Shown here one piece after another: positions 16,217 to 61,951 of a stretch of 64,000 nucleotides of DNA. The stretch is from an uncultured Latescibacterota bacterium (GTDB lineage: Bacteria; Latescibacterota; UBA2968): contig OY282377.1 in NCBI GenBank assembly GCA_958295785.1, positions 1,626,394 through 1,690,393 of the forward strand. The letters are read 5' to 3'. Position 1 is the stretch's first letter; every line of letters starts with the position of its first letter. The notes below the pieces were generated by a model. That model ran no database searches, was not told where the DNA came from, and was given only the letters and a program-made list of their open reading frames with translations. A program made the position numbers and the translations under genes.

Positions 16217-16389
16217 TTTTGCTTTCCTTTTTTTGGTTTTGCCGTTGCGCCATTGGGCAAGGCTTTGCTCGGCTTGGTGCTTTTGAGTGGATGGTCTGAA
16301 CGCATCTCATGTAGAGATTGTTCAACCCGCTCAAACCCATAGCGGTGAACCATCAAACGCAGGGTGTCTTTGAGTTTCGCTTCGGTCAT
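16213..16389 (-). CDS. Very small ORF (58 aa) in the RM operon
   Basis: From ATG 16389, reading MTEAKLKDTLRLMVHRYGF and ending in a Lys-rich tail (PKKGKQK), with TGA at 16213-16215 overlapping the next GTG start. Because of this GTGA overlap and its place between the AbiJ-like gene and the 116-aa gene, it is probably real although short. The first half is a predicted helix and the second half a basic, disordered tail. Function unknown; a DNA- or RNA-binding adaptor is only a guess. Confidence 0.5.
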   Translation of the reverse strand: MTEAKLKDTLRLMVHRYGFERVEQSLHEMRSDHPLKSTKPSKALPNGATAKPKKGKQK

Positions 16390-16408
16390 AACCCATCCCT
16401 TTCATTAT

Positions 16409-17323: not shown

Positions 17324-17356
17324 CATGTCCTCCAAATATTTTGTTGGGTGTCGAAT

Positions 17357-17593
17357 CTATATCTTGCGGTACCTGTTGATTGCCTCATCAATTGTCTCGG
17401 TTTTGATGCCGCCTTGTCGATGCACTTCAGAGCGGATGGACTTGACATCTTTGCAGAGTTGTTCTTTCCAGCCGAATTTCTCGTGTAATTTTAAGAAGGC
17501 CGAAATCGCTGCCTGCAAATCTCCGTCATAGTCATCTTTGACGACCTCCCACAGGTGTTGTCCAAGACCTCTGGGCAAATCTATGGAAATCAT
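17357..17593 (-). CDS. Small hypothetical protein upstream of AbiJ-like gene
   Basis: 78 aa from ATG 17593, chosen because GAGG lies six bases ahead; the longer frame to 17644 lacks a ribosome site. Sequence MISIDLPRGLGQHLWEVVKDD ... GGIKTETIDEAINRYRKI is mainly helical and charged, the size of antitoxin-like proteins, but no ribbon-helix-helix or known antitoxin motif is certain. It lies 33 bp upstream of the AbiJ-like start and is probably co-transcribed with it. It could be the partner of the AbiJ-like protein. Confidence 0.5.
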   Translation of the reverse strand: MISIDLPRGLGQHLWEVVKDDYDGDLQAAISAFLKLHEKFGWKEQLCKDVKSIRSEVHRQGGIKTETIDEAINRYRKI

Positions 17594-17874
17594 GATGAAC
17601 CTCATTTCTGGTAGGTCAAGCGACCATTGTTTGCGTAGCGACACGGCGTCGCCCTTTGCGAAATGGTGAACAAAACATTACACAAGTCATTATACTCAGT
17701 CAACGGCGAATCGTCAAGTAGGCGTTGCGATGAGAGGATAAACCGCGAGGGGTTTGCCGCCATGCATGTGCTACATGACTTACCACTTGTCAGACCAAAC
17801 GCAATTTGGTAACATAGCGATATTTGGGGCGATATTGTTTGCAAACGCGCAATGGCGTAATCCAGAGCATAACA

Positions 17875-19854
17875 ATGGCGAGAAGGAAAAAGACGAACAA
17901 CTCGCGCAGGAGTAGGCCGACTTCGCGGCGGGAGCGGCGGCGGGTGTCCTCGGAGGAGCGAGCGTCATGGCGCGAACTAACTCGGCGGGATGTTTTGGGC
18001 ATCCTCGCGCTCGGTTTGTCGGTGGGCGTTTGTTATTTGCCGGCTGTGTTGTGGGGCGGGTTTGTGTGGGATGATCGGGTGTTCACCGAGGCCGAGCCTG
18101 TACGAGATGGGGTTGGCGGCCTGTGGCGGATCTGGTTCTCGCCGAGCGACATCACGAGCGAGGGGCACTATTGGCCGTTGACTTATACGAGTTTTTGGAT
18201 TGAGCACGAGTTGTGGGGGTTCGACCCGACTGGGTATCACATCGTCAATGTGGTGCTACATCTCGCCAACACTCTGCTGTTGTGGTGCTTGCTGGCGCGG
18301 TTGGTCGTGCCCGGCGCGTGGGTCATTGCCGCGGTGTTTGCGGTGCATCCCTTGCACGTCGAATCTGTGGCGTGGGTGATCGAGCGCAAGGACGTGCTTT
18401 CGGGGGTGTTCTATCTGACCGCGTTTTTGACTTATGTTCGCTTTGTGGCGTCAAAGGCGGGATGGCGTCACTACTTTCTCGCACTCGCGCTGTTTGTACT
18501 CGGGATGTTGTGCAAGTCCATTGTCGTTACGCTGCCGGTGGCGTTGTTGATCTATCATTGGTGGCAACATGGTCGCATAATCGGCGCGGATGTGCTTGGG
18601 CTGCTGCCGTTCTTCGCAGTGGGGTTGGGCATTGTGATCGCGGATATGTCCTACTACGAGGAGGATATTGCGATTGGTTATTCGCCACTCGAGCGGGTGC
18701 TCATTGCAGCGCGTGCCCTGTGGTTTTACGCAGGGAAATTGCTGTGCCCGGTCGGGCTGGCGGTCATCTATCCCCATTGGGAAATTGGGGTTGCAGACCC
18801 GATAGCGTGGGGCTATGTCGCAGCCGGTTTTGCGGTGGTCGCGGCACTTTATCGCTTTCGGCATCGGATCGGGCGCGGGCCACTTGCCGGCGCGCTGTTC
18901 TTTGCGGTGACATTGTCGCCCGTGCTCGGGTTGATCGACTACGGATACATGCAGTTTTCCTTTGTTGCGGATCGCTATCAGTATTTGGCCGGCATCGGCG
19001 TGTTGGCGGTCGTTGTCAGCGCGGCGGTGCATTATGCGGGCAGGCTACCGGGCGCGTGGCAACGGGTCATCCCCATCATCGCACTGGGAACCCTGGGAAT
19101 CCTGGGGACGCTAACTTGGCGTCACGCAAGCATTTATCGGGATGAGTTGACGTTCTTCAACCACATCATCGCGCACAACCCCACAGCGCGAAACGCGCAC
19201 CTCAATCTGGGCAAGGCCCTGTTCGAGTCCGGGCGCAGGGAAGACGGCCTCGCTGCCATCCAAACCGCGGTGGCACAACGGCCCACCTCCTTCAAGGCAC
19301 ATCTCAGCGCGGGGCTGATGCTCATGCACTTGTCGCGTTTCGACGAGGCCGAGCGACACTTGCGTCGGGCCGTGGAACTCGATCCCAACCACCGAGACGC
19401 GCACTACAGCGCGGGCATGGTGCTTTCAAGGATGGACCGCATTGACGAGGCAGAACAACACTACCTCCGCACTGTGGAAATCGATCCGTCCCATTTTGAA
19501 GCACTGACCAACCTCGGTGCCCTGCTCATAAGCGCGAGCCGGTTCGAGGACGCAGCACACCACTTGCGCCGCGCCTTGCACATCAACCCGCGCGATTCAA
19601 AAGCCCTTCACAACTTGGCGTTGGCGCAACTGCGGCAAAAACATTACGCCGAAGCCCTCGCCCTCTATCGGCGCGTCGTCGCACTTATGCCCCGCAATGC
19701 ACGGGCTTATGCGGACATGGGCATCGCGCTCTACTATTTGGGCCGCGCTGCGGAAGCATTAGAGAGCCTCAACCGCGCGCTGTCTCTCGACCCCACGCTC
19801 GAAGACGCACGGGCCAACCGCGATGCAATACAGCAGGCAAAAACACGCAGATGA
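17875..19854 (+). CDS. TMTC-like GT-C glycosyltransferase/TPR membrane protein, copy 4
   Basis: 659 aa from ATG 17875 (MARRKKTNNSRR), preferred to the ATG at 17824 because all paralogs begin with this basic head. About ten spans follow, with WDDRVFTEAE in the first loop and HPLHVESVAWVIERKDVLS, then about six TPR units (AHLNLGKALFESGRREDG and others), one or two more than in copies 2 and 3. At DNA level it is clearly diverged from the 1-5 kb array, so it is an older paralog. It ends 16 bp before the GT22-like gene; this pairing supports a role in membrane protein glycosylation with lipid-linked sugars. Confidence 0.88.
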   Translation: MARRKKTNNSRRSRPTSRRERRRVSSEERASWRELTRRDVLGILALGLSVGVCYLPAVLWGGFVWDDRVFTEAEPVRDGVGGLWRIWFSPSDITSEGHYWPLTYTSFWIEHELWGFDPTGYHIVNVVLHLANTLLLWCLLARLVVPGAWVIAAVFAVHPLHVESVAWVIERKDVLSGVFYLTAFLTYVRFVASKAGWRHYFLALALFVLGMLCKSIVVTLPVALLIYHWWQHGRIIGADVLGLLPFFAVGLGIVIADMSYYEEDIAIGYSPLERVLIAARALWFYAGKLLCPVGLAVIYPHWEIGVADPIAWGYVAAGFAVVAALYRFRHRIGRGPLAGALFFAVTLSPVLGLIDYGYMQFSFVADRYQYLAGIGVLAVVVSAAVHYAGRLPGAWQRVIPIIALGTLGILGTLTWRHASIYRDELTFFNHIIAHNPTARNAHLNLGKALFESGRREDGLAAIQTAVAQRPTSFKAHLSAGLMLMHLSRFDEAERHLRRAVELDPNHRDAHYSAGMVLSRMDRIDEAEQHYLRTVEIDPSHFEALTNLGALLISASRFEDAAHHLRRALHINPRDSKALHNLALAQLRQKHYAEALALYRRVVALMPRNARAYADMGIALYYLGRAAEALESLNRALSLDPTLEDARANRDAIQQAKTRR

Positions 19855-19870
19855 ACGCAAGGGAAATAGC

Positions 19871-21520
19871 ATGGCAAAAAGCAAACGGACAAACAGACTG
19901 CGCCGCAGGCAGCAATCTCGACCGCGCTCGGTGTGGGATGTCGCGTTGCATTTGCAGACGCCCGATGAACCGGTGTGGAAATACCTGTGGGTCGTGCTCG
20001 CGTTGGCGTTTGCGGCGCGGGCGACTGTCGCGTTGGCGGGCGATTTCATGCTGCATCCCGACGAGATCATGCAATACTTGGAGCCGGCGCATCGGTTGGT
20101 TTTTGGCAATGGCGTTATCTACTGGGAATTTTTCTACGGCGCCCGCTCATGGCTGGTGCCCGGCTCGGTCGCTGGCGTGCTCGCGCTGTTCAAGGGGGTC
20201 GGCCTCGGCGCGCCGGGCTGGTATGTCGGTGGGGTCGAGTTGATGTTTTGCGCGGTTTCTCTGCTGATTCCGGGGGGGATGTACTTTTTGGCGCGCCGGC
20301 ACTTCGGCGAAATTGCGGCGCGGGTCGCGCTGATCGCCGGTGCGTTTTGGTACGAATTGGTCGGTTTTGCCCACAAGCCGATGACCGAGTTCATTGCGAC
20401 CGCCTTGTTGATGGCGTTGCTCGCCCTGTGCGTGCGTCCGTTAAAACCGAGGATCGCGTGGTTGGTGGCCTTGCTCGCGGTGCTGGCAGCGGCGATACGG
20501 ATGCAGTACGCGCCGCTCGCGCTCGCGGTGCTCGGCCTGTATTTTTTTCGTTTGGGAAAGGGATCGAGAATGCGACTCGCGGTCGCTGTGGTCGCGTTCT
20601 TCCTCGCGGTCGGGGTATTCGACGCGGCGACGTGGGACGCCGGCTTGTTTCACTCGTATTTTACCAATATCCATTTCAACCTCGCGCTCGAGGATGCGCG
20701 TTCAGGCAGCAGCCCGGCGTATCAGTTCCTCTCGTGGCTTTTGTTCGCCAGCGGGGGGCTTTTCCCGCTGTGCGTTGCGCCGGCCCTGCGCGATCTGCGC
20801 CGCTATGGGTTCTCGCTCGCGCTCATCGCCTTGGTTCTGATCATCCATTCCGCCGAAGCCCACAAAGAGTACCGCTTTGTCTTTGTCGTCATTCCGCTCT
20901 ATTTGCTCATCGGCGCGGATGTCGTGGCGCGACTCGCCGGGCGCGTGGGCAAGCCGATTTGGACGTACGGATTGGCCGGTGCCGCGTTTGCGGCGGTTTC
21001 CCTGGCCGGAATTTTGAACGCCTTGCCCAAGCAGGACGAAGCGTACCGGCTGATTTACGCGCCCGAGAAAGTGCCCGTCCGGTTCATCCGCAACCAAGAC
21101 CCCGGTTTCGCCGCGTACCGCTATCTGGCCAGCGCGCCCAATGTCGTCGCCGTGTGGCATGTGGATCGGGCGTATTTCGACCTTCCAGGCTATTATTATT
21201 TGCATCGCAAAATACCGTTTTACGACGCCGCCACCGGGCCGAATAGCAACATACAAAAGGATGTGGCAACGCTCCACGCCTCGGTCAGCCACCTCGTATC
21301 CGAGGCCCCAAACCTCGCCGCGCCCGGCTATGTGGTGGAGAAGGCGTTTGGCGATCTCCGCATTTTGCGCCGTGCGGAAAACGCATCCCCAGTCCGGCAA
21401 TGGCAAAACTTCACCCCGACCCTGACCGGCGATCTCGCCGATCAGATCATGCGGCGGATGGGGCCCGATGTTCCATCTCCCCCGGTCAATAACAATATCC
21501 GTTTTGTCGCGCAGGAATGA
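19871..21520 (+). CDS. GT22 (ALG9/PIG-B-like) mannosyltransferase-family membrane protein
   Basis: 549 aa from ATG 19871 with AAGGGA upstream. After a basic head the first loop contains HPDEIMQYLEPAHRLVFG, the GT22 signature, and the later luminal/periplasmic motif HKEYRFVFVVIPL matches HKE-x-RF of the same family. About ten hydrophobic segments. GT22 enzymes transfer a sugar, usually mannose, from a polyprenyl phosphate donor. The gene is 16 bp behind TMTC copy 4 and 10 bp before a DUF167 gene, so the three form an operon. The last ~35 codons are duplicated at 28619. Confidence 0.85.
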   Translation: MAKSKRTNRLRRRQQSRPRSVWDVALHLQTPDEPVWKYLWVVLALAFAARATVALAGDFMLHPDEIMQYLEPAHRLVFGNGVIYWEFFYGARSWLVPGSVAGVLALFKGVGLGAPGWYVGGVELMFCAVSLLIPGGMYFLARRHFGEIAARVALIAGAFWYELVGFAHKPMTEFIATALLMALLALCVRPLKPRIAWLVALLAVLAAAIRMQYAPLALAVLGLYFFRLGKGSRMRLAVAVVAFFLAVGVFDAATWDAGLFHSYFTNIHFNLALEDARSGSSPAYQFLSWLLFASGGLFPLCVAPALRDLRRYGFSLALIALVLIIHSAEAHKEYRFVFVVIPLYLLIGADVVARLAGRVGKPIWTYGLAGAAFAAVSLAGILNALPKQDEAYRLIYAPEKVPVRFIRNQDPGFAAYRYLASAPNVVAVWHVDRAYFDLPGYYYLHRKIPFYDAATGPNSNIQKDVATLHASVSHLVSEAPNLAAPGYVVEKAFGDLRILRRAENASPVRQWQNFTPTLTGDLADQIMRRMGPDVPSPPVNNNIRFVAQE

Positions 21521-21530
21521 GGGACGCGGT

Positions 21531-21788
21531 ATGACGTTGGACATCAAAGTATATCCCAAAGCGCGGCACAACAGCATTGAGGTTCAGGGCGCGCGCGTCA
21601 CAGTGCGCGTTGCGGCTGCGCCCGAGGGCGGCAAGGCCAATGACGCAGTGGTGGCATTATTGGCGAAGCGACTCGAGATCGGCAAAGGCAGGGTGCGGAT
21701 AGTGCGGGGGCACAAGGCGCGAAACAAGCGGCTGTGCATCGCTGGCCTGACTGCGGAACGGGTCTTCGCGCATCTGGCGGCGAAGTAG
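21531..21788 (+). CDS. DUF167/YggU-family protein
   Basis: 85 aa from ATG 21531. It has the family core PEGGKANDAVVALLAKRL (GG-x-AN motif) and the usual small alpha/beta size. The cellular role of YggU/DUF167 is unknown; it often accompanies membrane-protein genes. It follows the GT22 gene by 10 bp and is closed by a hairpin at 21821. A frameshifted duplicate lies at 28736-28991. Confidence 0.85.
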   Translation: MTLDIKVYPKARHNSIEVQGARVTVRVAAAPEGGKANDAVVALLAKRLEIGKGRVRIVRGHKARNKRLCIAGLTAERVFAHLAAK

Positions 21789-21820
21789 CGTTTGACGATT
21801 CGCGCCTGACCGACCCCCAA

Positions 21821-21878
21821 AAGCCCTCGCATAGCTTGGCCCCTAATCAATCCCTTCAGGGTCCGTATGCGAGGGCTT
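21821..21878. terminator. Hairpin terminator between convergent genes
   Basis: A perfect 13-bp stem, AAGCCCTCGCATA and its complement at 21866-21878, with a long loop of 32 bases that itself holds CCCTTCAGGG. It separates the DUF167 gene (+) from the propeller protein gene (-). On the minus strand TTTT follows the stem, so it serves that direction better. It was copied with the segmental duplication (29024-29081). Confidence 0.7.
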
Positions 21879-21912
21879 GTGTCGTTAGTGACGCTTTCTC
21901 ATGACCAACCGG

Positions 21913-24900
21913 TTAGGGAACCGCGTCAATCCGATAATCGTTGCCCACCCGAGTCACACGAAAGCCGTTCACATTGAGGCTACCAACGCAAATCCGGATA
22001 CTGCTGAAGGGGATATAGACGAAGCACCCACCGCCGACATTTCTAAACTCTCCACCGCCGATACTACAACTCTGGTTGGGACGTACGACCATCCCCGCAC
22101 TGCAAGCACCGAGACTACCCGTTGGTGGTGGCGGAGTACTACCGCTCACCGTGACGCGCACGCCGGTTGAGCAGTTGTTGCCGGTATTGCTCTCGCCGCT
22201 GACGCTTGCCACGCACGCGCCGTAGTAATACGTGCCAGAACTCGATGGGGCAGTCAGGCTGATCGACTCAGAACTGGTCGCCGAAGCCGCAAGCCCGCTG
22301 ACCGAATCCGTGCCGACTTCTGTATCGCTTGTCGAGATCGTCGAATTTGACGAGCGGTAATAGCGCAGGGTCGTCGAGGCTGACCGTCCCGTACCCGAGT
22401 TGCGAACGGTCGCTCTCAGGGTGAAAGATTGCCCGGTTGTCAGCGTGTTGTCGCTGACCGAAGGCGATTGAACAATCAGATCGGGACGACTACTGCCACC
22501 ACCACCGCTGCCACTGCTCACCGTGACGCGCACGCCGGTTGAGCAGTTGTTATTGGCATTGCTCTCGCCGCTGACGCTTGCCACGCACGCGCCGTAGTAA
22601 TACGTCCCCGCACTCGAAGGCGCTCTCAGGCTGATCGACTCAGCACTGGTCGCCGAAGCCGACAGCCCACTCACGCTATCCGTGCCGACTTCTGTATCGC
22701 TTGTCGAGATCGTGGAATTGGACGAACGGTAATAGCGCAGGGTCGTCGAGGCTGACCGTCCCGTACCCGAGTTGCGAACCGTGGCACGCAGGGTAAAGGA
22801 TTGCCCGGTTGTCAGCGTGTTGTCGCTGACCGAAGGCGATTGAACAATCAGATCGGGACGACTACTGCCACCGCCGCCACCACTACTGATAGACCCTGAA
22901 GTATCCAGCGCGATGCCATACAGCCACTCCAATCCTGTGGTGACGAGGTCTTCAACATTGGAGCCATTGAGGTTGGCACGCTGAATCTTTCTCGTGCCCC
23001 TGTCCGTCCAGTACATCTTTCCGCGCCCCACATCCAGCGCGATGCCATATGGCCCCGACAATCCTGTGGTGATGAGATCTTCGACATTAGACCCATCCAG
23101 GTTGGCACGCTGAATCTTATCCGTGCCCCTGTCCGTCCAGTACATCTTTCCGCGCCCCACATCCAGCGCGATGCCAGTTGGCACCGACAATCCTTCTCGC
23201 CTGGTGATGAGGTCTTCGACATTGGACCCATCGAGGTTGGCACGCTGAATCTTAGCCGTGAGCCAGTTCGTCCAGTACATCTTTCCGCGCCCCACATCCA
23301 GCGCGATGCCATCTGGCCTCCTCAATCCTGTGGTGATGAGGTCTTCGACATTGGACCCATCGAGGTTGGCACGCTGAATCTTATCCGTGCCATAGTTCGT
23401 CCAGTACATCTTTCCGCGCCCCACATCCAGCGCGATGCCATATGGCCTCGACAATCCTGTGGTGATGAGGTCTTCGACATTGGACCCATCGAGGTTGGCA
23501 CGCTGAATCTTATCCGTGCCATTGTCCGTCCAGTACATCTTTCCGCGCCCCACATCCAGCGCGATGCCATACGGCCCCGACAATCCTTCTCGCCTGGTGA
23601 TGAGGTCTTCGACATTGGACCCATCGAGGTTGGCACGCTGAATCTTATCCCTGAAACCGTCCGTCCAGTACATCTTGGGCGTACCGCCCCCGCTGCCACT
23701 GTTCACCGTGACGCGCCCCCCATCCGAGCAGTTGTTATCGGAATTGCTCTCCCCGCTGACGCTTGCCACGCACGCGCCGTAGTAATACGTCCCCGCACTC
23801 GATGGGGCAGTCAGACTGATTGACTCAGCACTCGTGCCCGAAGCCGAAAGCCCGCTGACCGAATCCGTGCCGACTTCCGTATCACTCGCGGAGATCGTCG
23901 AATTGGACGAGCGGTAATAGCGCAAGGTCGTCGCGGCAGCCGAACCCGTGCCCGAGTTGCGAACTGTGGCGCGTAGGGTGAAGGTTTGCCCAGGCGTCAA
24001 GGTACTATCGCTGACAGAAGGCGATTCAACGATCAGGTCGGGACGACTACTGCCACCGCCAGGAGGCGATACTGGGCCGTCATAACTGCCGATAAAAATC
24101 AGAAAATCAGAAAAGTCTATCGCGCCATCTCTATTCAAATCATACCTAACTTGGTATCTGCCATCCCCACGCCTTGACCTATACTGCTCTGCAAACGCCA
24201 TAAAGTCGGAAAAGCCAACCGTGCCATTGCCATCAAAATCCGGCGTCCGGGCAGTCGTCGCATTAAACTCGATTCGGTTTGTCGTGGTGAGCATGTCGCT
24301 CGATGACGAGCTTTCAGAAAGCGTCACCGACGCAATACCAATGGAAAATTCCCTGCCCGTGACATTGGTCGCTGTGGTGAACTCTGCCCGTGTTAGAAAA
24401 CCAGAAGACAGCAATGTAACCGGCGGAGTCGCCGCGAAGTCAGTGCCCGTTGAAGCTCGAATTGGCAAGGTAAATGCGCTGTTCTCGGCTTTGTCAAAGG
24501 TCAGCAGAGTCGCATCAAAGTCAAAGCCGATTTGCATGCCGACCAAAGCAGTGGTCACGCCGGTTGCGAAAACTTCAATGGCAATTTTGGTGCCCTGTCC
24601 AGACACGGTGCCCGAGGTCACGGCATCATTTCGTTGATTGCCCGACCCGCCATTGGGAATCAAATCCAGCGACAGACGCGCATTGGCATTGGGGCCAGCG
24701 GCAACTTTTGCACGCTGTATCGCGTCATCCGAACGCCAGGCTTCTGCCTCGTCCTCGGCGAGCAGGCCGTGCAACCCCGCATCGCGCGCCTCGGCAATTT
24801 TCGCACGCAGGTCAGAACTCGGGGCAGATTCCCCAGGGGTCGCACCGGCAGTGACATCGGGTGAAGCAACGGCCTGATAGCCCACAAAGACCAGCACGGT

Positions 24901-51913: not shown

Positions 51914-53265
51914 TATCCTTCCTTTTCAATCTCGGTGAGGTTTTCGCGCAAAATGGGTCCAAAATCCATCTTGGACGAGCACGAAAACGTACACAATGCC
52001 AGGTCTTCCTCGTCCAATTCCAGAATGCCCAGGTTTTCGGCGTCGTCGAGGTCGCGGGTCACGAGTGCCCGAATCAAAAAATTGGGCAAAATATCCATGG
52101 GCATCACGTCGTCGTAATTGCCGTGCGGCACGAGGGCGCGATGGCTGCCATTCGTCGAGGTGGTCAATTTGAGGCGTTGGCCGAAAAACAATTTGGACAG
52201 GGCCAAATTCTTGATGGTGAAAAAATCCAGCCCGAGCGTGAGCCAGCCCAAAAACGCGCGTTTGTTGCCTTCCTCAAGTGCCGTAATCTGTTGGTGATAC
52301 CGCCCCAAAAACGCGCGGGCTTCGTCTGCTTTGCGCCCGGAGAGCACAGAGCCGCTGATGACGCGATTTTCGACATTGTCGAGTTCGCCCGAGGTCAGAT
52401 CCTCGAGGGACGCGCCCAGGCGCGTGCGGATCAATCGGGGGTGTTTCACCGTGGGGCCGCCCAAAGACACCACGCGCTCGGTCATAATCCGCCCAGTTGA
52501 GAACAGATGCCCCCATGCGATCACATCCTGAAGCCCGATGTGCCAGACTGTTTTGTTGCGATGCACGGGGTCCAAAAAGTGGATGTGCGTCCCCACCAAG
52601 CCGGCCGGATGCGGCCCGGAAAACTCTTCGACTTGCACGCGGTCAGAATTGACTTCGGGCAATGCCAACTCGGGGGACTTGCACACAAAAACCGTCCCAT
52701 CTATGAGTTTTGAGACGATCTCCAAGCCCAGTGCAAAATGTTTTTCTCGCCCTGCCGTGACCCGCGCCATGTCGGCTGCCAAGGGGTTGGTGTCCATGGC
52801 ATTGACAAAAATGGATCGCGCCTCTGTCGCCGGGTCAGCCACTTTGCCAAATGGCCGCGCCCTCAGGGCCGTCCACTGCCCCGAATCCACGAGTTGTTTT
52901 TTCACCGCCTCCGGAGCCAGATGCCCAATCGCATCTTCCGAATGAGCTTCAAAGGTGACCTCATCGCTGCCATCCAAGCGAATTGCCACAGACAAAAACG
53001 CGCGTTTTGCACCCCGATGAATGGCGACCACTTCGCCCGCGCCGGGCGACGTATATTGCACGCCCGCCATTTTTTTGTCCGTGAACAACACATCGCCGAG
53101 TTTGACGCGATCCCCCACTTGCGCCACCATTGTGGGCCGCATGCCCACGTAATCTTCACCCAAGAGGGCCACCGTCTGAACGGGCTTGCCGTTTTGCACC
53201 GCCGATTGATCGGGCACGCCATCAAGGGGCAGATCGAGCCCCTTTTTAATTGTTGTCAATCCCAT
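51913..53265 (-). CDS. nqrA: Na+-translocating NADH:quinone oxidoreductase subunit A
   Basis: 450 aa from ATG 53265 with GAGGCG ahead. Soluble subunit with the family start ([15 protein letters not shown]) and core motifs ([35 protein letters not shown]). First gene of the nqrABCDEF-apbE operon. A 53-bp piece of it (53066-53118) is copied exactly at 57323-57375, upstream of the VPA1262-like gene. Confidence 0.95.
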
Positions 53266-53680
53266 ATCGCCTCAATTTCCCTATAAAAAAAGCAACCACC
53301 CCTGTCGGTACAATCGGCCTTTGAGAAGGCGCGAGACAGACAGCGCAGTTGCATTGTGTTGGGACAATCAACACCTACATAGAGAGGAAACAAGTCCATT
53401 TCAATCCAAAAAAGAACAGACGCCAGCGCGAAACTGACGCGATATGTCGGTCAAAATTCCAATGGAGAACCAACCCTCCCGCTACGGAAATAATTTAGTA
53501 CAAGCCCTTTTAATTGTCAAGAAAAACGATTGGGATTTACGCAAGGCTTGTGGGGATAGCATAGCACTTTGCGTTTTTGAATCATCGCCTTACGCATCCA
53601 TTCCTAATTGGAGCACCGCGCAATACAACTGCTCGACCCGTTGCAAATCTCCAATGAGCACAATAACGGCGGCGAGGGCA
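53266..53680. other. Intergenic region upstream of nqr operon
   Basis: About 415 bp between nqrA and the stop of the 554-aa gene. Both flanking genes are on the minus strand, so this holds the nqr promoter. A TTTTTTTATAG stretch just upstream of nqrA is AT-rich enough for a promoter but no clear -35/-10 pair stands out. The plus-strand ORF starting at 53444 has no ribosome site and runs into the next gene's antisense. Confidence 0.5.
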
Positions 53681-55345
53681 TCAAGCGATTCTTCCGATGG
53701 CATTCATCTCCACATGCATCTCATTCACCGCATCAACCAGTTCCTGCCTTTGGCGTACAGCCCGTTCCAGTTCCTGCCACCTAGCGAACTGATCGAGAAC
53801 GGCGTCGAGGCGGTCTGTGTGTTTCAAGGCATTTGCCAAAATTGTTGGCGTTACGCCGTTGAGGTTTGCGCGAACACAGCATGTAGCCACCATGAGGTCA
53901 TCGCCACCCAACCGGGCGAGGTCTTTGGCGAGAAGTTCGCTGTAATCGTTGTTGATATCCACCACATCAGCATCGCCATGGCTTATCGCGGCGGCGTTGC
54001 CAAACACGAGGTAGTGCTGTTCGAACAGCCACCCGATGCGGGCCTCGATGCGCTCCACCAAGTTTGCCAAAGAAATCGTCAACCAGCATTCCAAGGTAGC
54101 GTCGAACACCTCCCGCCACAACTTTCCTGCTGCATTGAATCGCTCGTGCGGTTTCGAACATAACCAGTCCATGCCCGCGATGCCAACGGTAAGCAGGAAC
54201 GACGAGGGGGCAAAAGCATCACTATCCCGCGTTTGCAACCAATGCTGGGTACGTCGCCGTTGCTCGGCCAGTAAATCCCACGACTGCCGCCAGCGTTCAG
54301 ATGGTTTTTGTGTATTCGCCAGCAAATAGGCGCAACAGGATGCAGGAAGGCCCGATGTACTGTCGAAAATGGACTCAACCTCGAAGCCTGGATCCCGGTT
54401 AGCCAACAGGACATCCAGTCGCCGGAGGAGTTCTACGTCATCACCTGTTCCCTTGCCCCTTGAGCGGCGGCCCATCAGTTCCATCATAGCTAGTGCCCCA
54501 AGGCGCGGCGGAGGGGATTCGCCATCCGGCAACGCCTCGCCGCCTGTGGTCGGCGTGGCGGGAAGTTCCACCAACGCTGCTATATCAGCACTGACAACCC
54601 CTGCCTTCGAAAGACCTGCGACGATCCACGAGATTAGATCACTCTGCCGAAGATCCCTCGCATGAGGTTGATAGGCTCGCTGTCCGCGCTCGTCTCGCAC
54701 TTTCATCAAGAGCCACTGAGGGCCGAGGAAACGCCCGTCCGCCCGCGCCATAACAATGCCGCCGAGTTTCTCTATCCAAGTTGAAAGGATGGCCCTCACC
54801 TCGTCAGGTTCAGGCAATCCATCTGTGTCGAACTCTCCTGTCCGATGCGCTTTTTCCCATAGCCACTGACAATGATCCTCAGCGGTTTCCAACAGAAGAA
54901 AAGCCAATAAACTGCGATTCCAATGCCGCCCGTCCTCACTGCATGACGGCGCAACTGCCAGCGCGGCTTCGATCTTTTCGCGGTCGTGCAAAATAGTTGA
55001 GTGCCTTAAAACTTGGCGTATGGGATGCGGAAATCGAAAACGGTCCAAACAGCCAAGAACATTGGCTATGTCAACCTCCAAGAGGTTGGGAGCGATATCC
55101 AATTCGTCGAAATGCCCTGGATAATGATCTTGCTTTCGCCAAAGGTCGTCCAAGGGACAGCCAGTTCGCCACTCCTCAACTCGTTGTTCAAAGGCGTTGC
55201 TGTCCAGATAGTCATAGACGCCCTTACCCGGAGCCTTGTTGATTTTGTCAACCACCGCCTCAAGGTCCGAAAACGGCGCCGCGTTGTGCATCTTACTGGT
55301 GGTCTCAGAATACTCGGTGTGGTTATCAAGTAGATTATCGCGCAT
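53681..55345 (-). CDS. Large hypothetical protein of a VPA1262-associated locus
   Basis: 554 aa from ATG 55345 with a strong GGAGG seven bases ahead; an in-frame stop lies just upstream, so this start is firm. Mainly helical, with many Trp and Leu residues (HWNRSLLAFLLLETAEDHCQWLWEKAH, WDLLAEQRRRTQHWLQT), no membrane span and no motif I recognise. The C-terminus is a charged helix (FARWQELERAVRQRQELVDAVNEMH). It starts inside the preceding short ORF, so production may be coupled. It probably works with the PLD-like and VPA1262-like neighbours. Confidence 0.68.
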   Translation of the reverse strand: MRDNLLDNHTEYSETTSKMHNAAPFSDLEAVVDKINKAPGKGVYDYLDSNAFEQRVEEWRTGCPLDDLWRKQDHYPGHFDELDIAPNLLEVDIANVLGCLDRFRFPHPIRQVLRHSTILHDREKIEAALAVAPSCSEDGRHWNRSLLAFLLLETAEDHCQWLWEKAHRTGEFDTDGLPEPDEVRAILSTWIEKLGGIVMARADGRFLGPQWLLMKVRDERGQRAYQPHARDLRQSDLISWIVAGLSKAGVVSADIAALVELPATPTTGGEALPDGESPPPRLGALAMMELMGRRSRGKGTGDDVELLRRLDVLLANRDPGFEVESIFDSTSGLPASCCAYLLANTQKPSERWRQSWDLLAEQRRRTQHWLQTRDSDAFAPSSFLLTVGIAGMDWLCSKPHERFNAAGKLWREVFDATLECWLTISLANLVERIEARIGWLFEQHYLVFGNAAAISHGDADVVDINNDYSELLAKDLARLGGDDLMVATCCVRANLNGVTPTILANALKHTDRLDAVLDQFARWQELERAVRQRQELVDAVNEMHVEMNAIGRIA

Positions 55346-55680
55346 TGCACTCCCTCCAATGCTTGGCTACCAATCAATCCGAGCTCTAGTGCATTCGCGC
55401 CAATATCGTCAAAATGAGGATCAAGGACGAGAATGTGTCTCATTGCTACATTAACGGCCTTCTCGAACGCGACCAACCCCAGTATCCGGCCGTTGTGGTG
55501 TTCTAGACGTCTATGGTAGACGGCAGAACGCTCGGGAAAAAAGAATATGTCCTTATTCCTTTTTTCCCTTCCAAACTCAATTGATGGCCACAATAACTGT
55601 GGGGCGGTTGGCGGCTCAGGAAGATAGGTGCTTGGCGGCTCATGGTGCCGGCGCGTTGGTGGCAGTATTTCGTTGCTCAT
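55066..55680 (-). CDS. Short PLD-like ORF, probably truncated
   Basis: Frame of 204 codons from ATG 55680. The first ~115 residues look natural (SIEFGREKRNKDIFFFPERS ... AFEKAVNVAMRHILVLDPHFDDIG) and resemble the start of PLD-superfamily proteins. From about 55335 on, the composition turns Arg/Thr/Ser-rich and the frame runs 280 bp inside the next gene, which is more like read-through than protein. The second catalytic half is missing. So this is either a single-domain partner or a truncated or frameshifted gene. It lies 26 bp after the VPA1262-like gene. Confidence 0.45.
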   Translation of the reverse strand: MSNEILPPTRRHHEPPSTYLPEPPTAPQLLWPSIEFGREKRNKDIFFFPERSAVYHRRLEHHNGRILGLVAFEKAVNVAMRHILVLDPHFDDIGANALELGLIGSQALEGVQCAIIYLITTPSILRPPVRCTTRRRFRTLRRWLTKSTRLRVRASMTIWTATPLNNELRSGELAVPWTTFGESKIIIQGISTNWISLPTSWRLT

Positions 55681-55706
55681 TGTCGGAGGGCCGTGGGGTC
55701 AAATCG

Positions 55707-57266
55707 TCATTTGGGTCGTGTGGTCATCGGTTTAGCCAACCAACGTGCGAGGGGTTTGGCACTGTCCCATAAATCTTCGAGATGACCGATAACCGGTTCA
55801 GGATCTGGCAGACCAACAATCATGCCAGCACGCTCGCCTATCGTATGAAGGGAATTTCCAGAGAGCCAAACCTTCTCGTCGACCACCAAAAACCGATCAT
55901 GTAAATCGGGTACTTTGCCGCCGAGGACGCGGATCTCAGGCTTCGTGGAATAGCTTTTGAAGGTCTTTTTTAGTACTCTTTGCAATTCTTTGCCAGCACT
56001 GATGTTTTCGTCAACGCGACCCTTCCCTTTGAGACATTCTGTAGATGTCAGAATCCTGAGTTGTACGCCCTGCCACTGGATAGCATGACCAAAGGCGAGC
56101 AGTTCCCGGCCAGCGAAGTAAGGATCCGCGATGAGCACGGATCCGCATGCCGCCCCAATTTTGTCGCGAATGTATTGCGCCGCGTCTGTTGGCGAATCGT
56201 GAAACCAATGTTGTTCAGCGGCGGCCTGCCGGCGTGATCGCCGGTACTCGGCCTGTACTAGCCGCGAACCGACATCGACATTTTGGCGATCTTTGCCGAC
56301 AACCATATCCCTTTCCTTTTCCTTTTCGGAGACATCATACGAATATGCGGGGCGCTGCCCACTCGCCGGTACATGTACCCTCTTCCGACGCCGTTGTAAT
56401 GCCGCTTCAATACGGACCCTCCTTACGATTGGAGTGGGCTCGAGCCAATAGAGCAACCCATAGTCAGGATGCGTAATCGCACATCCTTCGCGGTTAATTT
56501 TCTCTGGAAACTCGAGAACAGCTATCGCATCGTTATCGAATTTGTGGATAACCGGCGTCATCCGTCCACGCAAACACTCGTTGACGATCTCCATTCGCAA
56601 TCCGCTGAGGCATTGCCCCTGGCGGGCGACGAGCTTGTAAGCCACTGTTTCAGCCGATCCAGTGTTCGGCTTTTCGAGATGGGTTTTCTGAATGGACCGG
56701 AACAGAGGATTCGGACCGATCAGGCACATCGCCCCTTGGTATTCGTAGTAGGCATCTACCAAATCGAAAAGGAGCCACTCCTTCAACTTAATACGGTTCT
56801 TGTCCTCCTGAATGAGATCTTTGATCTTCCGTGGTAGCTCTTTTTTGGCATAGAGAAAGTGGGCGCGTGATCCCTGAACCCATTCAGGCGCGAAATCCAG
56901 CTTGTTCGACGCAACGAGATGCGGCCAAGCGGGTTCGTCCACGAACGGGCCACCCAACAGTTTCGCCCCATCTCCGGGCGTCGGCGTATAGGGGTCTGCG
57001 GGGAGAGACAGATCGCCGCGAATGGCGCGTTTGTACCAATCAATGGCGTCCGTCACAGTTAAGGCAAAACGGCGATAATGCAGATATAAACGTCCTCTGT
57101 TTTGTGCTCGAAAGAGTTGCTCTTCACTACTCGCGGTTTCTGGAAACTCGCTGGGGCGTAGTTCTACCATCCCAAACAGCAGGTGCCGAACCTTGTCGTT
57201 GCGAAACCAAGCTAAGTGGATGACCGCTTGGCGATAACCGGTCCATTTGCAGGAAATAGGGGCCAT
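55707..57266 (-). CDS. VPA1262-like protein with PLD-type C-terminal domain
   Basis: 519 aa from ATG 57266 (AAGGA eight bases ahead); the frame extends to 57380, but those codons come from an nqrA fragment. N-terminal ~330 residues (VIHLAWFRNDKVRHLLFGMVELRP ... YLEPTPIVRR-like) fit what I recall as the VPA1262 family. The C-terminal ~150 (GSVLIADPYFAGRELLAFG ... DLHDRFLVVDEKVWLSGNSL) resembles a PLD-fold nuclease with HDR in place of HxK. It heads the three-gene operon. Such genes occur in defence-rich regions, but no mechanism is known to me. Confidence 0.7.
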   Translation of the reverse strand: MAPISCKWTGYRQAVIHLAWFRNDKVRHLLFGMVELRPSEFPETASSEEQLFRAQNRGRLYLHYRRFALTVTDAIDWYKRAIRGDLSLPADPYTPTPGDGAKLLGGPFVDEPAWPHLVASNKLDFAPEWVQGSRAHFLYAKKELPRKIKDLIQEDKNRIKLKEWLLFDLVDAYYEYQGAMCLIGPNPLFRSIQKTHLEKPNTGSAETVAYKLVARQGQCLSGLRMEIVNECLRGRMTPVIHKFDNDAIAVLEFPEKINREGCAITHPDYGLLYWLEPTPIVRRVRIEAALQRRRKRVHVPASGQRPAYSYDVSEKEKERDMVVGKDRQNVDVGSRLVQAEYRRSRRQAAAEQHWFHDSPTDAAQYIRDKIGAACGSVLIADPYFAGRELLAFGHAIQWQGVQLRILTSTECLKGKGRVDENISAGKELQRVLKKTFKSYSTKPEIRVLGGKVPDLHDRFLVVDEKVWLSGNSLHTIGERAGMIVGLPDPEPVIGHLEDLWDSAKPLARWLAKPMTTRPK

Positions 57267-57322
57267 TTTTGGAATCCTTTTGAGAGTAAAAACGTGCGTC
57301 CGTTTTATCTGGACACACGCTC

Positions 57323-57375
57323 GCCATTTTTTTGTCCGTGAACAACACATCGCCGAGTTTGACGCGATCCCCCAC
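57323..57375. other. Exact 53-bp copy of an nqrA segment
   Basis: Identical to 53066-53118 inside nqrA over all 53 bp (58 bp with one mismatch), in the same orientation. It lies immediately upstream of the VPA1262-like gene and is joined directly to an IS5 end. It codes for nothing in the local frame. A templated-insertion or recombination scar. Confidence 0.9.
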
Positions 57376-57377
57376 GT

Positions 57378-57401
57378 CAACGCTTTCTGTTAGGGACTCT
57401 A
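57378..57401. mobile_element. Solo IS5 terminal relic
   Basis: AACGCTTTCTGTTAGGGACT plus CTAA, matching the right ends at 27437-27460 and 27806-27829. No other part of the element is present on either side. Its last bases supply the stop codon of the Rpn-like gene. Confidence 0.7.
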
Positions 57402-58316
57402 AGCCTCTGCGTCCAACGCATGCTGAAAAGCATCGAGATTGTCCACTTGCACCGCCGCACGATGCAACTGCTTGAGCCGTTGCAAATCGTCAATGGCCCG
57501 AATGCGACCGGCGAACTGACCGGGCGCGTCTGCATCAAAGCGAACCTCCAACACATCGAGAATATCTTCAATGGTGCTTTCTCTAATCCCTTCCTCCCTG
57601 CCCTGTTCAATGCCTCGGTCAATACCTTGTTGGGTAAGGTATTGAGCAAATGATGATTCACGCATAATCGCATCCATAAAACCCTCCTGAGAAATAATAC
57701 GCCTAACGGTGGACAATTCATAAGATATCCCACCTAAAATAGCCATACCCGCCATCATGTCAACCTTGGTTGAAGCGTCCAAGGGCAAGGCTTCCGTCGC
57801 ATGAAGACATTGACGCAACCACGCATCCACAGACACGCCAGACGGAGGTTTCATCAATGGCGCAAACGGAAGCAAGCCCGGATGACCGCCCTCGATAATC
57901 GCTTGACCATCGATTTCACTCAGACGAATCACCTGATATTCCACGACAACGCGGTGGCCGGGCAGTTCTTGGATGTAGTATCCCTTATCGCGTCGTCCAG
58001 CACCGGGACGCAGGTAGATCACAAAGGAAAAGATCGGCAGACCATAGCGTTCTATGGCGCGACCAATATAGCCGGCCATGCGACGCGACATCGGAGTGTC
58101 CGTGCTATCCGCGGTTTGAAATTCGCAATGAATCAACGCATCCTCGCCCTCAATACGCACGCGAATCAGGCTATCGGCGCGCCGGGCTTCCACAGTGGGT
58201 TGCTCGGTCTCGAGCACCTCGAGCACCTCGATGTCAGCGCGTCCGAGTGTGAAGCGGATGAAATCGTCCGGGTAGGTTTGAATCAGGTGTTTGGATATCG
58301 TATCGTATTCGGCCAT
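57399..58316 (-). CDS. Rpn-family recombination-promoting nuclease / PD-(D/E)XK protein
   Basis: 305 aa from ATG 58316 with AAGGTGG ahead (the longer frame to 58361 has a hydrophobic head foreign to the family). PD-(D/E)XK core: DSLIRVRIEGEDALIHCEFQT, with D and E-x-Q near residues 55-70. The C-terminal half has QGIDRGIEQGREEGIRE, a flexible linker typical of Rpn/DUF4351-type proteins. Rpn proteins cut DNA and promote RecA-independent recombination in E. coli, and some are linked to phage defence. The TAG stop is formed by the IS5 relic, so a few C-terminal residues may be lost. Confidence 0.82.
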   Translation of the reverse strand: MAEYDTISKHLIQTYPDDFIRFTLGRADIEVLEVLETEQPTVEARRADSLIRVRIEGEDALIHCEFQTADSTDTPMSRRMAGYIGRAIERYGLPIFSFVIYLRPGAGRRDKGYYIQELPGHRVVVEYQVIRLSEIDGQAIIEGGHPGLLPFAPLMKPPSGVSVDAWLRQCLHATEALPLDASTKVDMMAGMAILGGISYELSTVRRIISQEGFMDAIMRESSFAQYLTQQGIDRGIEQGREEGIRESTIEDILDVLEVRFDADAPGQFAGRIRAIDDLQRLKQLHRAAVQVDNLDAFQHALDAEA

Positions 58317-58405
58317 AAACGCCACCTTGAAAAAATTGATGAAAAAAAATGATACAATCACGCCATTTTTGACAAGACTTTGTTTGACAAAGATGCGAAA
58401 ATAAA

Positions 58406-58446
58406 GGGAATTATATACTTGCCAACCCTAAGCTTTCTTGTTATAT
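58406..58446. mobile_element. Solo left end of the IS1595-type element
   Basis: GGGAATTATATACTTGCCAA followed by CCCTAAGCTTTCTTGTTATAT, matching 5461-5501 with one difference. It is cut off by the IS701-like copy 3, whose first base follows. A nested insertion: the IS1595 arrived first and was later interrupted and its rest lost. Confidence 0.85.
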
Positions 58447-59540
58447 AGGACTTACGCATGCTGAGTTAAAAAAGGGTGCAATTCCGTAAAATGTATCACT
58501 TTGAGGAGGTGTCAATGCGCCAACCGACGCGTTTGGATTACTGTCAGTATCTGCTTAGCCGTCCCCTCAACTATACCCTGACCCCTTTCGCCGACCATAG
58601 CGAAGGGTTCAGTCATGATATGATCAACCGCTATCTCGCCGGTGAGCGTATCCCCCCCCCCGCTCGGTGTGGGAACACGTCAAAGACCACATCGCGCTGA
58701 CGCCTAAAGGCTATGTGATCTTTGATGACACGGTTTTAGACAAGCGACACGCACGCAAGATCGCGTGAGTGCGTCGTCAATAGAGCGGCACCGCCCAAGG
58801 CGTCATCAATGGCATTGGGGTGGTCACATGTGTCTATGTCCATCCGCAACAGGATCGGTTCTGGCTGATTGACTATCGGATTTATGACCCGCAAGGCGAT
58901 GGCAAAACCAAATTGGATCATCTCAAGGACATGCTCTCTGCGTTGGTCTATCAGAAGGGCCTTCCTTTTACCGGGGTCTTGATGGACAGTGGGTATGCGA
59001 CCAAAACCGGTCATGTTACACAGAGAGCAGATGCAAAAAACCTATTATTGTCCCCTCAAGACGAACCGACGCGTGGACGATTCGGCAGGCACAACCCCCT
59101 ACCAGCGCGTAGATAGCTTAACTTGGACTCAAGCGGAGCGCAAACAAGGCAAGCCAATTAAAATCAGAGGGTTCCCCAAAGACCACAAAGTGAAATTATT
59201 CCGGGTGGCGTCTGCTGCCAGACGCACGGCGTATGTCGTGACCAACGACCATGCTCAAAACGATTCTTCAGTGGTACAACAGGTGTGTCACCAAAGATGG
59301 AAAATTGAGCCCTTTCACCGCGAAGTCAAACAAGTGACCGGGCTTGAAAAGTGTCAATGTCGGTTGGCACGCATGGTACGAAATCATATTGGGTGTGCGA
59401 TGTTCGTTTGGATAAGACTCGCGCAGGTGGCCTATCAAACAGGACAAACCATTTATCAAGTCAAATACAGGGGGGTGGCTGACTTCTTGAGACAACAACT
59501 CAAAGCACCTCATATTCCAATGGTGATTGCGTAAGTCCTA
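58446..59540 (+). mobile_element. IS701-like insertion sequence, copy 3
   Basis: 1095 bp with the same ends as copy 1 (TAGGACTTACGCA / TGCGTAAGTCCTA), about 97% identical to it. Inserted in the IS1595 end. It carries a dead transposase gene. Confidence 0.85.
58515..59534 (+). pseudogene. IS701-like transposase with frameshifts and stops
   Basis: Starts as MRQPTRLDYCQYLLS at ATG 58515. A C-run (58652-58661) has two extra bases relative to copy 1, and GTCATGTTACACAGA near 59010 has one more. It contains the same TGA and TAG (KIA*VRRQ*SG) as copy 1, but not copy 1's two later stops. The C-terminal half, from MGMRPKPVMLHREQMQK to MVIA, is open and carries RWKIEPFHREVKQVTGLEKC. Inactive. Confidence 0.85.
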
Positions 59541-59883
59541 TTTCATTTATTGGTTTTCTCCTTCTGTGTCTACCAGGTTTTCGATTGTCGGCGCGGCAAT
59601 GCTCGCTTTCGCAGCATGTACGCTATTCATAATTTTTGTTTGGTTAGATGGATAATTACAAGATGTAAAAAATACTGAAAAAATGAGATCAATTACCTCT
59701 AAGGGTGCTGTTTGCACGGCCTATGCCTGCAATGATCGCATCTAATCAAAAAGATCATTTCGCAGAGAACATCGCTGTGGCAAACTCTGTGAACTTGGGA
59801 TGATCGCCAAGCGCATGCACTAAATTCCGCACGCTCCGTGCCGCGGGAGAGGGACTTTGCATAAATGCTGCGTCCATCTCTTT
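59541..59883. other. AT-richer spacer, no gene seen
   Basis: About 340 bp between IS701-like copy 3 and the subtilase remnant. Only short frames without ribosome sites. No repeat shared with other parts of the window was noticed. Confidence 0.5.
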
Positions 59884-60810
59884 CTACAGCACCGGTCCGC
59901 AAAGCAAATTTGCAACACCAAGCCCATACTCCACATCCGGGCCCGGTTCTCCGGCATCTATTGCACACTCCTTCAGGACACTTACCACTTTCTGTGGAGT
60001 GTTCCATTCAGGGAATTGGAAGAGATAGAATGCCATGGCTGAGAGGCGGGCGGAGGCGGGCGAGGTATACTGCTCAGGAATAATCGTAAGACAAGCATCT
60101 TTGAGAGTGCCGCAACGAATAACTCTTCGCTCTGGCTCCACCGTTGTGCTGTCCGAACCGATACCCGCACTACTGGCAAAAATCACATTATCGAGCCGCG
60201 CGATCTCCAGGTTGTTCTGGTAAAGTTTCCAATTTTTCTCTGCACTGGAGGTTGCTCCATATGCACCACCCGCCTGCCAGAACAGATGATTGTCGTTCCA
60301 CAAGTCCCAAGGACGGGATGTCGGGGAGACGATGTCAGTATCGTCATATATACTATTGCCCGCGGCAAGAATAAACAAGATGCCGTTCTCTCCGCGCAAC
60401 CTCTCCACATCCAGCTCTGTTTTAAAGGGAATACCAAGCGGTACATGCACCACCCGGGTTTTCCGACGCAATGATTCGTGTCTGCCGGAGGTGAGATATC
60501 GCAGTCCTGCGTTTTCTCCGCTAATAAAAGAACCCCAAATACCCAAAGAAAACGAGAGCGAGGTCTCCGGGATGCCCATATAGACCAGCACTTCCTTCAT
60601 GATTTCTCCGTGTTGACTTTCTGGATCATCACCGACCAGCAGAGTATCTCTGAACCCTCCCTGCTACCTGATTGCCAAAGTGTTGAGGATGTATATGCTT
60701 TCATCCGATTGTCCGCTGTTGTACCTCCCGTTGATTCTGATTAAGGATTCTTTGGTCAGCGGAACATCATTTGGACCGCAGCCGCCATCCCGCAGGATGA
60801 AGCACGGCAT
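59884..60810 (-). pseudogene. S8 subtilisin-like peptidase, interrupted and 5' truncated
   Basis: The main open part runs from ATG 60600 to 59884 (238 aa). It contains the oxyanion-Asn motif FILAAGNS and a catalytic-Ser motif YTSPASARLSAMAFYL (GTSxAxP-like). In the same frame upstream of 60600 the sequence reads GDDPESQHGEIMKE, which looks like the catalytic His motif, but TAG at 60664-60666 stops it. Beyond that the frame continues to ATG 60810 (MPCFILRDGGCGPNDVPL...IRINGRYNSGQ). The Asp region is not found. So the protease has lost its start and been split. Alternatively two short adjacent genes, but the His placement argues against that. Confidence 0.6.
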
Positions 60811-61036
60811 GATTAACAATACTACCAACTAATACAGTCGCATCTTTCAGATCCTTTCTGTATGGTCGCTGAATTTTCGGAGGCTTTCAAAGGATTACGA
60901 AGTCTTGACCCGCAGCAGTGAAGCCTTTATTCACCTATCTATGAGTCCTCTCTGGCTCAAGCGACTCGCTTAACGGACAGGGTTAAGATGGCTTCTGAGA
61001 AACGGTCAGTTGTACCCCGCTCCGTCTATTCACCCA

Positions 61037-61951
61037 CTATCCCCTTCGATCACTCCAAATATTATCCGCGTCAATGGGTTCTTCTGTGCGAACAACGCCT
61101 TGATCGTCAATGCCCAAAACCGGAAGTTCCGCGTGGTAATTGGAATACGGCCCCCACATAACGGCGAGTTGCTCGGGTGTCATCCCCGCAATGCTCGGCT
61201 GATCCCAATACTGTTTGGGGCGCGCCACTTCTTCTGCGGTGCCCTGGCGGGCCGAGGTTCTGCTCGTGTATTTGTACAGAATGGATCGGCGTTGGTGCGC
61301 TGCACGCCAGGGCAAGGTGCCGTGCGTTTGCGCCCCATCCATAAAAAAGAGCACATCGCCCGCTTGCATCGCGGGTTGAACGAGCACATCCATGTCGCTT
61401 TTGAAGTATTTGAGATCTTCGGGCATAATGTATTTGGATTTGTGCGATCCGGGCACGGCGACAAACCCGCCATCGCCTGCATTGACATCTGACAATTGCC
61501 ATGAAACAGTGACGCCGCCGCAATACATTTCGCCATTTTGGTTGCGATACGCCACATGAGGTTTGTGGCGATCTCCGGATCCGTGTAGCCGAAGGCCCGC
61601 CACGCCCTTGACATGGCCGATGAGCTCGGGGCCGTGATCCAAGCGAAAGCCCGGCCCGCACATGTCGTTGAGACGCGACACGATCTGGGGATGGACGAGC
61701 ATTTTTCTGAACGGATCGGAATGCGGCGCGGGCATTTTCAGAAAATAGGGATGCTGGTTGCTGGTTCTCACAACCGCATCGGCCCGCACATCCGGTCTTC
61801 CGGGCAGGTCGTCAGCATCCCCGATTTTTAGAATTTTCCGCGTGTAATAATCAATGGCCTCGTTCGCTGTTGCGACCTCATCGGGGCCGAGCACTTGCGG
61901 CACGACGAGGTGCCCGGTGAGGTCCCAGAAGTATCTCTCTTTTGCATCCAT
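61037..61951 (-). CDS. Phytanoyl-CoA dioxygenase (PhyH) family protein
   Basis: 304 aa from ATG 61951. Fe(II)/2-oxoglutarate-type double-stranded beta-helix: MYCGGVTVSWQLSDVNAGDGGFVAVPGSHKSKY is the family core (W-x-L-x-D-x-x-x-x-NG/DGG-x-x-x-x-PGSH), and the distal His lies in FFMDGAQTHGTLPW. The proximal metal pair is probably in the HKPHVAY region and is less clear. Bacterial PhyH enzymes hydroxylate many small substrates, so none can be named. It lies 18 bp after the TPP enzyme gene, suggesting a shared pathway. Confidence 0.87.
   Translation of the reverse strand: MDAKERYFWDLTGHLVVPQVLGPDEVATANEAIDYYTRKILKIGDADDLPGRPDVRADAVVRTSNQHPYFLKMPAPHSDPFRKMLVHPQIVSRLNDMCGPGFRLDHGPELIGHVKGVAGLRLHGSGDRHKPHVAYRNQNGEMYCGGVTVSWQLSDVNAGDGGFVAVPGSHKSKYIMPEDLKYFKSDMDVLVQPAMQAGDVLFFMDGAQTHGTLPWRAAHQRRSILYKYTSRTSARQGTAEEVARPKQYWDQPSIAGMTPEQLAVMWGPYSNYHAELPVLGIDDQGVVRTEEPIDADNIWSDRRG

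Follow-up and report, generated by a model that had tools for sequence, protein, structure and literature searches.

A VPA1262_N gene pair as a candidate anti-phage module, with an eroded copy in an uncultured Latescibacterota bacterium

Introduction

Enzymes of the PLD type bring two half-sites together in each active unit. Among bacterial defence systems, Mokosh and Azaca contain a PLD-like domain (PMC10952713), and BrxL-HKD of BREX belongs to the HKD superfamily, with the lysine of the motif replaced by arginine (HRD) in a form argued to be still active (PMC12839542). A different kind of defence nuclease is represented by the Rpn proteins, which are anti-phage toxin-antitoxin systems (PMC10327210). 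VPA1262, from which a further protein family takes its name, is a gene of the genomic island VPaI-6 of Vibrio parahaemolyticus, and the excerpted account of that island states no function for it. The VPA1262_N domain is named in public annotation, with no described function in the literature searched.

Here we analyse a locus that encodes a VPA1262_N protein in a 64,000-nucleotide stretch of the genome of an uncultured Latescibacterota bacterium (hereafter the window). A preliminary description made from the sequence alone had proposed an uncharacterised defence locus of three genes with no described mechanism. We found no description of such a gene set in the open-access library searched, and the PADLOC library matches it weakly, through the candidate system PDC-S05. 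Comparison with other genomes turned the locus into one member of a recurrent module, which can now be tested as an immune system.

Results

A VPA1262_N protein with a PLD-like end

The three minus-strand genes of the preliminary description lie at 57266-55707, 55680-55066 and 55345-53681, with the 26-bp spacing (ORF1 to ORF2) and the overlap (ORF2 with ORF3) that it gave. All three required reinterpretation, so that the locus now reads as follows:

55707..57266, minus strand: ORF1, VPA1262_N protein of 519 aa and predicted PLD-superfamily nuclease (ATG start at 57266; NCBIfam NF040700)
55345..55680, minus strand: ORF2 remnant of about 112 codons, the N-terminal half of a small PLD-like protein whose HDR half-site is lost (from the alignment of relatives and codon-position GC)
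53681..55345, minus strand: ORF3, large partner protein of 554 aa; compared with its 717-aa counterpart in L007, about 143 residues are missing close to the N-terminus
56115..56126, minus strand: DPYF motif, ORF1 residues 381-384
55848..55901, minus strand: HDRFLVVDEKVWLSGNSL, ORF1 residues 456-473, an HxR form of the HKD motif (from the alignment of 13 relatives)

Residues 62-501 of ORF1 match positions 3-477 of the 478 in NF040700 (VPA1262_N_dom; E 2.1e-59, 201.5 bits, above the curated cut-off of 80), whereas the full-length model NF040699 (VPA1262) reaches 18 bits, below its cut-off of 325, over positions 397-502 only of 1026. The preliminary description rightly recognised the VPA1262 start and the HDR end, and took them for two joined parts; since the PLD-like half lies within the VPA1262_N model, ORF1 is not a fusion. 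A longer TTG-start version of ORF1 reaching 57380 was set aside as an artefact, as it crosses a 60-bp, 98%-identical copy of part of nqrA.

PLDc_2 matches ORF1 at E 7.5e-4, under the Pfam cut-off. In the alignment of 13 relatives D381 and P382 are invariant, as are H456, D457, R458, W467, G470 and S472. ORF1 reads HDRFLVVD from residue 456, an HxR variant of the PLD signature HxKxxxxD with arginine for lysine. By this alignment, the invariant residues (DP, then HDR...W..G.S) constitute a predicted PLD half-site, present once. A second clade of relatives lacks the aspartate (D463) that ends the HxR-x4-D motif and reads HDRFLIFP instead, so catalysis by VPA1262_N proteins is not certain.

ORF1 is 59% identical to its relative in L007, a MAG deposited as Gemmatimonadota, with divergence of 0.30/0.22/0.58 at the three codon positions; the corresponding values for ORF3 are 0.39/0.31/0.57. 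This is the pattern of constrained coding genes, beyond chance. A sequence search of the PDB gave no relative (one chance-level match, E 0.052), and structure predictions from a two-row input were poor (pLDDT 29.5 for ORF1 and 37.1 for a relative of ORF3), too poor to settle the fold or to show that the partner is helical.

A shortened partner and the remnant of a small PLD-like gene

A contig scan with ORF3 alone returned nothing; an alignment query then found the L007 relative (717 aa, 48% identical), and ORF3 also has relatives on plasmids of Azospirillum (658 aa) and Burkholderia glumae (656 aa). Its start is conserved, with MRD-LLD as in L007, and the first dozen residues align with the relatives. 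Residue 17 then aligns with residue 160 of L007, so that some 143 residues have been lost without a change of frame. The firm start noted in the preliminary description is retained, and the alignment to L007 excludes that ORF3 is full-length. Tested members of the partner family gave no convincing match to a Pfam, PADLOC or NCBIfam family, and ORF3, in which the preliminary description had seen no known motif, matched no housekeeping family.

ORF2 is an open frame of 204 aa (55680-55066) of which only the first 112 or so residues, with the PLD-like start seen in the preliminary description, are genuine. Its onward stretch to 55066 is non-coding and runs over ORF3 out of frame: for the last ~92 residues, codon-position GC is 0.32/0.60/0.61 in the ORF2 frame versus 0.60/0.32/0.60 in the ORF3 frame (0.63/0.43/0.59 for ORF3 overall), and it is the ORF3 frame that aligns with relatives in the overlap. 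Codon-position composition and this alignment together dispose of a 204-aa protein. Intact relatives in Burkholderia (227 aa) and Klebsiella (213 aa) carry a half-site, HDRF...D...WHFG, in their second half, which resembles that of ORF1 (hhalign E 4e-5, 25 columns). This HDR half was absent from the window in all three forward frames. The Azospirillum ORF2 (L004, 8875-9557) is frameshifted, its HDRF half being readable in another frame, and in the L007-type locus only a 123-bp gap is left between the genes that flanked the former ORF2. ORF2 is thus broken or gone in three of the five lineages that have or once had it, and this speaks against an essential role.

An island with scars of rearrangement

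Around the module the window contains the following elements:

57399..58361, minus strand: Rpn-family (recombination-promoting nuclease) gene of 320 aa, the upstream neighbour (TIGR01784 E 2.3e-5, below cut-off)
57316..57375, minus strand: 60-bp duplicate of nqrA codons 47-66 that separates rpn from ORF1, a rearrangement scar outside ORF1 (98% identical to 53059-53118)
53590..53675, minus strand: 3' end scrap of a second rpn gene up to its stop codon, directly downstream of ORF3 (translation IVLIGDLQRVEQLYCAVLQLGMDA, then stop)

The Rpn nuclease and insertion-sequence scars reported by the preliminary description are indeed there. Over 68 nt the scrap shares 72% identity with 57447-57514. A complete rpn gene thus stands on one side of the module and the 3' scrap of another on the other side; anti-phage activity has been published for the Rpn family (PMC10327210). 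Further out lie part of an IS701-family transposase gene (58989-59534) and, at 59884-60600, a weakly matching remnant of an S8 peptidase (subtilase).

Homology of the window to two relatives of the genus (L038 and L039) ends at 53420 and restarts at 61038, and the island in between (53421-61037) has a GC content of 0.49-0.53 against 0.57-0.58. At this place L034, L038 and L039 have TPR/GWxTD-like and hydrolase genes, between nqrA and a phytanoyl-CoA-dioxygenase-like gene (names assigned by eye). Neither ORF1 nor ORF3 was found in the other genus genomes searched, ORF3 being absent from 10 of 10. Since the nqrA scrap is 98% identical to its source and nqrA proteins of genus members share 83-86% identity, the rearrangement appears recent.

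A constant pair with an optional third gene

VPA1262_N genes were sought by tblastn and contig scans. In all 15 loci with a readable downstream side, VPA1262_N is followed by a large partner of 449-717 aa. These loci (plasmids, MAGs and one viral contig) are those of the window, L007, Azospirillum, B. glumae, Bradyrhizobium septentrionale, Rhizobium tumorigenes, Klebsiella variicola, Methylorubrum, Gluconobacter, Agrobacterium, B. barranii, R. etli, Vibrio halioticoli, Aliarcobacter and a contig of a P4-like satellite (L054); two contigs that end at the VPA1262_N gene (L052, L053) stand outside this count. The partner lies directly 3' of VPA1262_N or after ORF2, with an IS630 in between in B. 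barranii, and gene overlaps are mostly of 4-8 bp. In Vibrio and L054 the module genes are ORFs rather than annotated features. Because some loci were reached with a partner query and others with a VPA1262_N query, the pairing is not assumed from one route only. The triplet of the preliminary description therefore holds as a pair: VPA1262_N and partner form the constant unit, and ORF2 is optional, occurring in some lineages, where it carries its own HDR half-site.

The module occurs in Pseudomonadota, Campylobacterota and the window's own phylum. Alignments of a first clade retrieved no viral contig and the ORF1 query no phage record; queries from the second clade retrieved a small record without annotation as well as two viral contigs. 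The E. coli genomes searched gave no match to the Klebsiella or the L054 module.

Some loci have additional neighbours. In Azospirillum (L004, 2019-7235), a gene for a CorA-like transporter and one for an SMC-like ATPase of 1314 aa, which matches LmuB weakly, lead straight into VPA1262_N and possibly form a larger system with it; as core genes they were rejected, being present in no other locus. In L007 an AAA NTPase of 1718 aa and its neighbour of 309 aa (16038-22126) are encoded about 4 kb from the pair, on the far side of housekeeping-like genes (panC-, folK- and purD-like by eye). In Methylorubrum (L016, 12581-13363) an extra 260-aa gene without a family match above cut-off overlaps the partner's end.

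Partner types follow the VPA1262_N tree

Partners fall into two types. The first comprises those of the window, L007, Azospirillum and Burkholderia, to which the proteins of Klebsiella, Bradyrhizobium, Rhizobium and Methylorubrum can be joined with modest confidence by profile comparison (hhalign E 5e-5 to 1e-4, 101-136 columns). The second is found in Gluconobacter, Agrobacterium, B. barranii, R. etli, V. halioticoli, Aliarcobacter and L054. Compared as profiles, the partners of the second clade gave no significant match to those of the first (E 0.063 and 0.91), and common ancestry of the two types is therefore not claimed.

In a tree of 13 ORF1 proteins the group with second-type partners forms one clade (100/100). 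When three groups are distinguished (first type with ORF2, first type without ORF2, second type), two changes on the tree explain them, the minimum possible, against a mean of 6.4 after shuffling. Partner type follows the VPA1262_N clade, which we read as stable co-inheritance of nuclease and partner.

Recurrence beside defence genes

The preliminary description had proposed looking for conservation near other defence genes, and the pair does recur in such company. Anti-invader genes stand in the retrieved flanks of eight of the 11 annotated plasmid loci, whereas in similarly sized control windows from elsewhere on these plasmids the count was 0/11 on a strict reading and at most 3/11 on a lenient one (p 0.0005 and 0.043, respectively, in one-sided Fisher tests), the labels for loci and controls having been assigned with the groups known, not blinded. 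Defence neighbours include Abi, multiubiquitin/ThiF, TrlF, SIR2 (twice), restriction endonucleases, a helicase with ResIII and Eco57I domains plus a PAPS reductase, a CBASS cyclase with an S-4TM effector, and HsdS, DUF4297 and an RT; no clear defence neighbour was seen at L005, L014 and L031. In L052, an 815-aa protein encoded nearby has by eye an HNH-like start and a P-loop NTPase, without confirmation by Pfam.

The psu-int interval of P4-like satellites is an anti-phage hotspot (PMC9122126). L054 shows the order phage integrase, VPA1262_N, partner, Psu and pieces of a P4-type primase, and in this one case the pair sits exactly in that interval. Recurrence beside anti-phage genes and this satellite slot together make a bacterial immune system the probable function. 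A defence role by association is well supported, protection itself being predicted, and the family is a real, conserved and uncharacterised module, probably anti-phage. The uncharacterised defence locus guessed in the preliminary description withstands both refutations that it had named, since the gene set recurs in other genomes and ORF3 matched no housekeeping family.

Discussion

We consider it reasonably probable that the eroded locus in the window belongs to a mobile module directed against invaders, in which a VPA1262_N nuclease of the PLD type is restrained and triggered by a large partner. The mechanism that we infer for the module as a whole would involve two co-expressed core genes, with the VPA1262_N protein as effector nuclease. 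One half-site per protein is seen in VPA1262_N and in ORF2, and PLD enzymes need two; VPA1262_N would therefore act as a homodimer, or as a heterodimer with ORF2 where the latter is intact. The large partner, variable and weakly predicted to be all-helical, would keep the nuclease inactive and release it on sensing an invader, whereupon cleavage of DNA (or RNA) would lead to protection or cell suicide. As the core has no methylase, helicase or ATPase, discrimination of self from non-self would lie in sensing by the partner and not in DNA marking; and with no motor, methylase or second-messenger enzyme in the core, direct activation on invader sensing is favoured.

Other roles would fit part of these data. 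The two-gene, translationally coupled layout and the frequent plasmid location (biased, since a plasmid collection was the main one searched) recall a toxin-antitoxin or plasmid-maintenance module, in which the PLD nuclease would be the toxin, the large partner its inhibitor and any effect on phages secondary. But partners of 449-717 aa far exceed antitoxins of usual size, and the module is found on chromosomes and in the psu-int defence slot of a satellite as well, which makes this unlikely. The abundance of plasmid members, together with the SMC-like ATPase directly upstream in the Azospirillum locus, could also suggest competition between mobile elements, the module cutting incoming plasmid or satellite DNA in a Wadjet-like role instead of acting on phages. 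We hold this to be quite improbable, as the SMC-like gene occurs in one locus only and it is anti-phage systems that the psu-int hotspot of P4 stores (PMC9122126).

A separate question is whether the window copy still works, whatever the role of the family. With its ORF2 half-site and part of the ORF3 N-terminus lost, it may be inactive or reduced. That it is a dead remnant without function we judge to be nearly an even matter: ORF2 is truncated, ORF3 lacks about 143 residues, the locus is surrounded by gene scraps, pieces of IS701 and the weak remnant of an S8 peptidase, and ORF3 is missing from the 10 other genus members searched; yet ORF1 and ORF3 remain open and in frame, ORF3 retains its start codon and the sequence immediately ahead of it, and L007 has also lost ORF2 with its other two genes intact. 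The linkage data point to intact versions of the module, among them one of two genes (L054, 7123-10111) and one of three genes (L015, 8881-13209), and these should come before the window copy in any test.

More tentatively, and with less than even probability, the module may exemplify a new class of motor-free, two-component immunity that combines an HRD-type PLD nuclease with a large, fast-diverging sensor (at least two types without detectable kinship), ORF1 and ORF2 sharing a heterodimeric site in some lineages.

Comparison with known systems

ORF1 belongs to the VPA1262 family, a name given by NCBI, over nearly the whole of NF040700. NF040699, with 1026 positions, is some 500 positions longer, and from size only we would guess that its extra half is a fused partner protein. 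As for PDC-S05, the PLD half of ORF1 matches two models (E 1.4e-6 and 7.5e-6), not over a whole model but at positions 156-267 of 285 with 26 bits at best, and the Klebsiella ORF2 also matches (E 1.3e-5). These models have 285-306 positions and are matched by the PLD part of the module alone; the PADLOC library holds no model of the partner.

ORF1 and its partner did not match the PADLOC models of Mokosh and Azaca, both of which also use helicase-type ATPases. RpnL/RpnS, whose family adjoins the module in the window, resembles it in joining a nuclease to a restraining protein, but differs in its PD-(D/E)XK fold and in an antitoxin encoded inside the gene, and is unrelated in sequence. The likeness to BrxL-HKD of BREX lies in an HRD-type PLD motif, as in ORF1; whereas BrxL-HKD and other HKD effectors are fused to, or work with, AAA+ or helicase motors, the core of the present module is without a motor.
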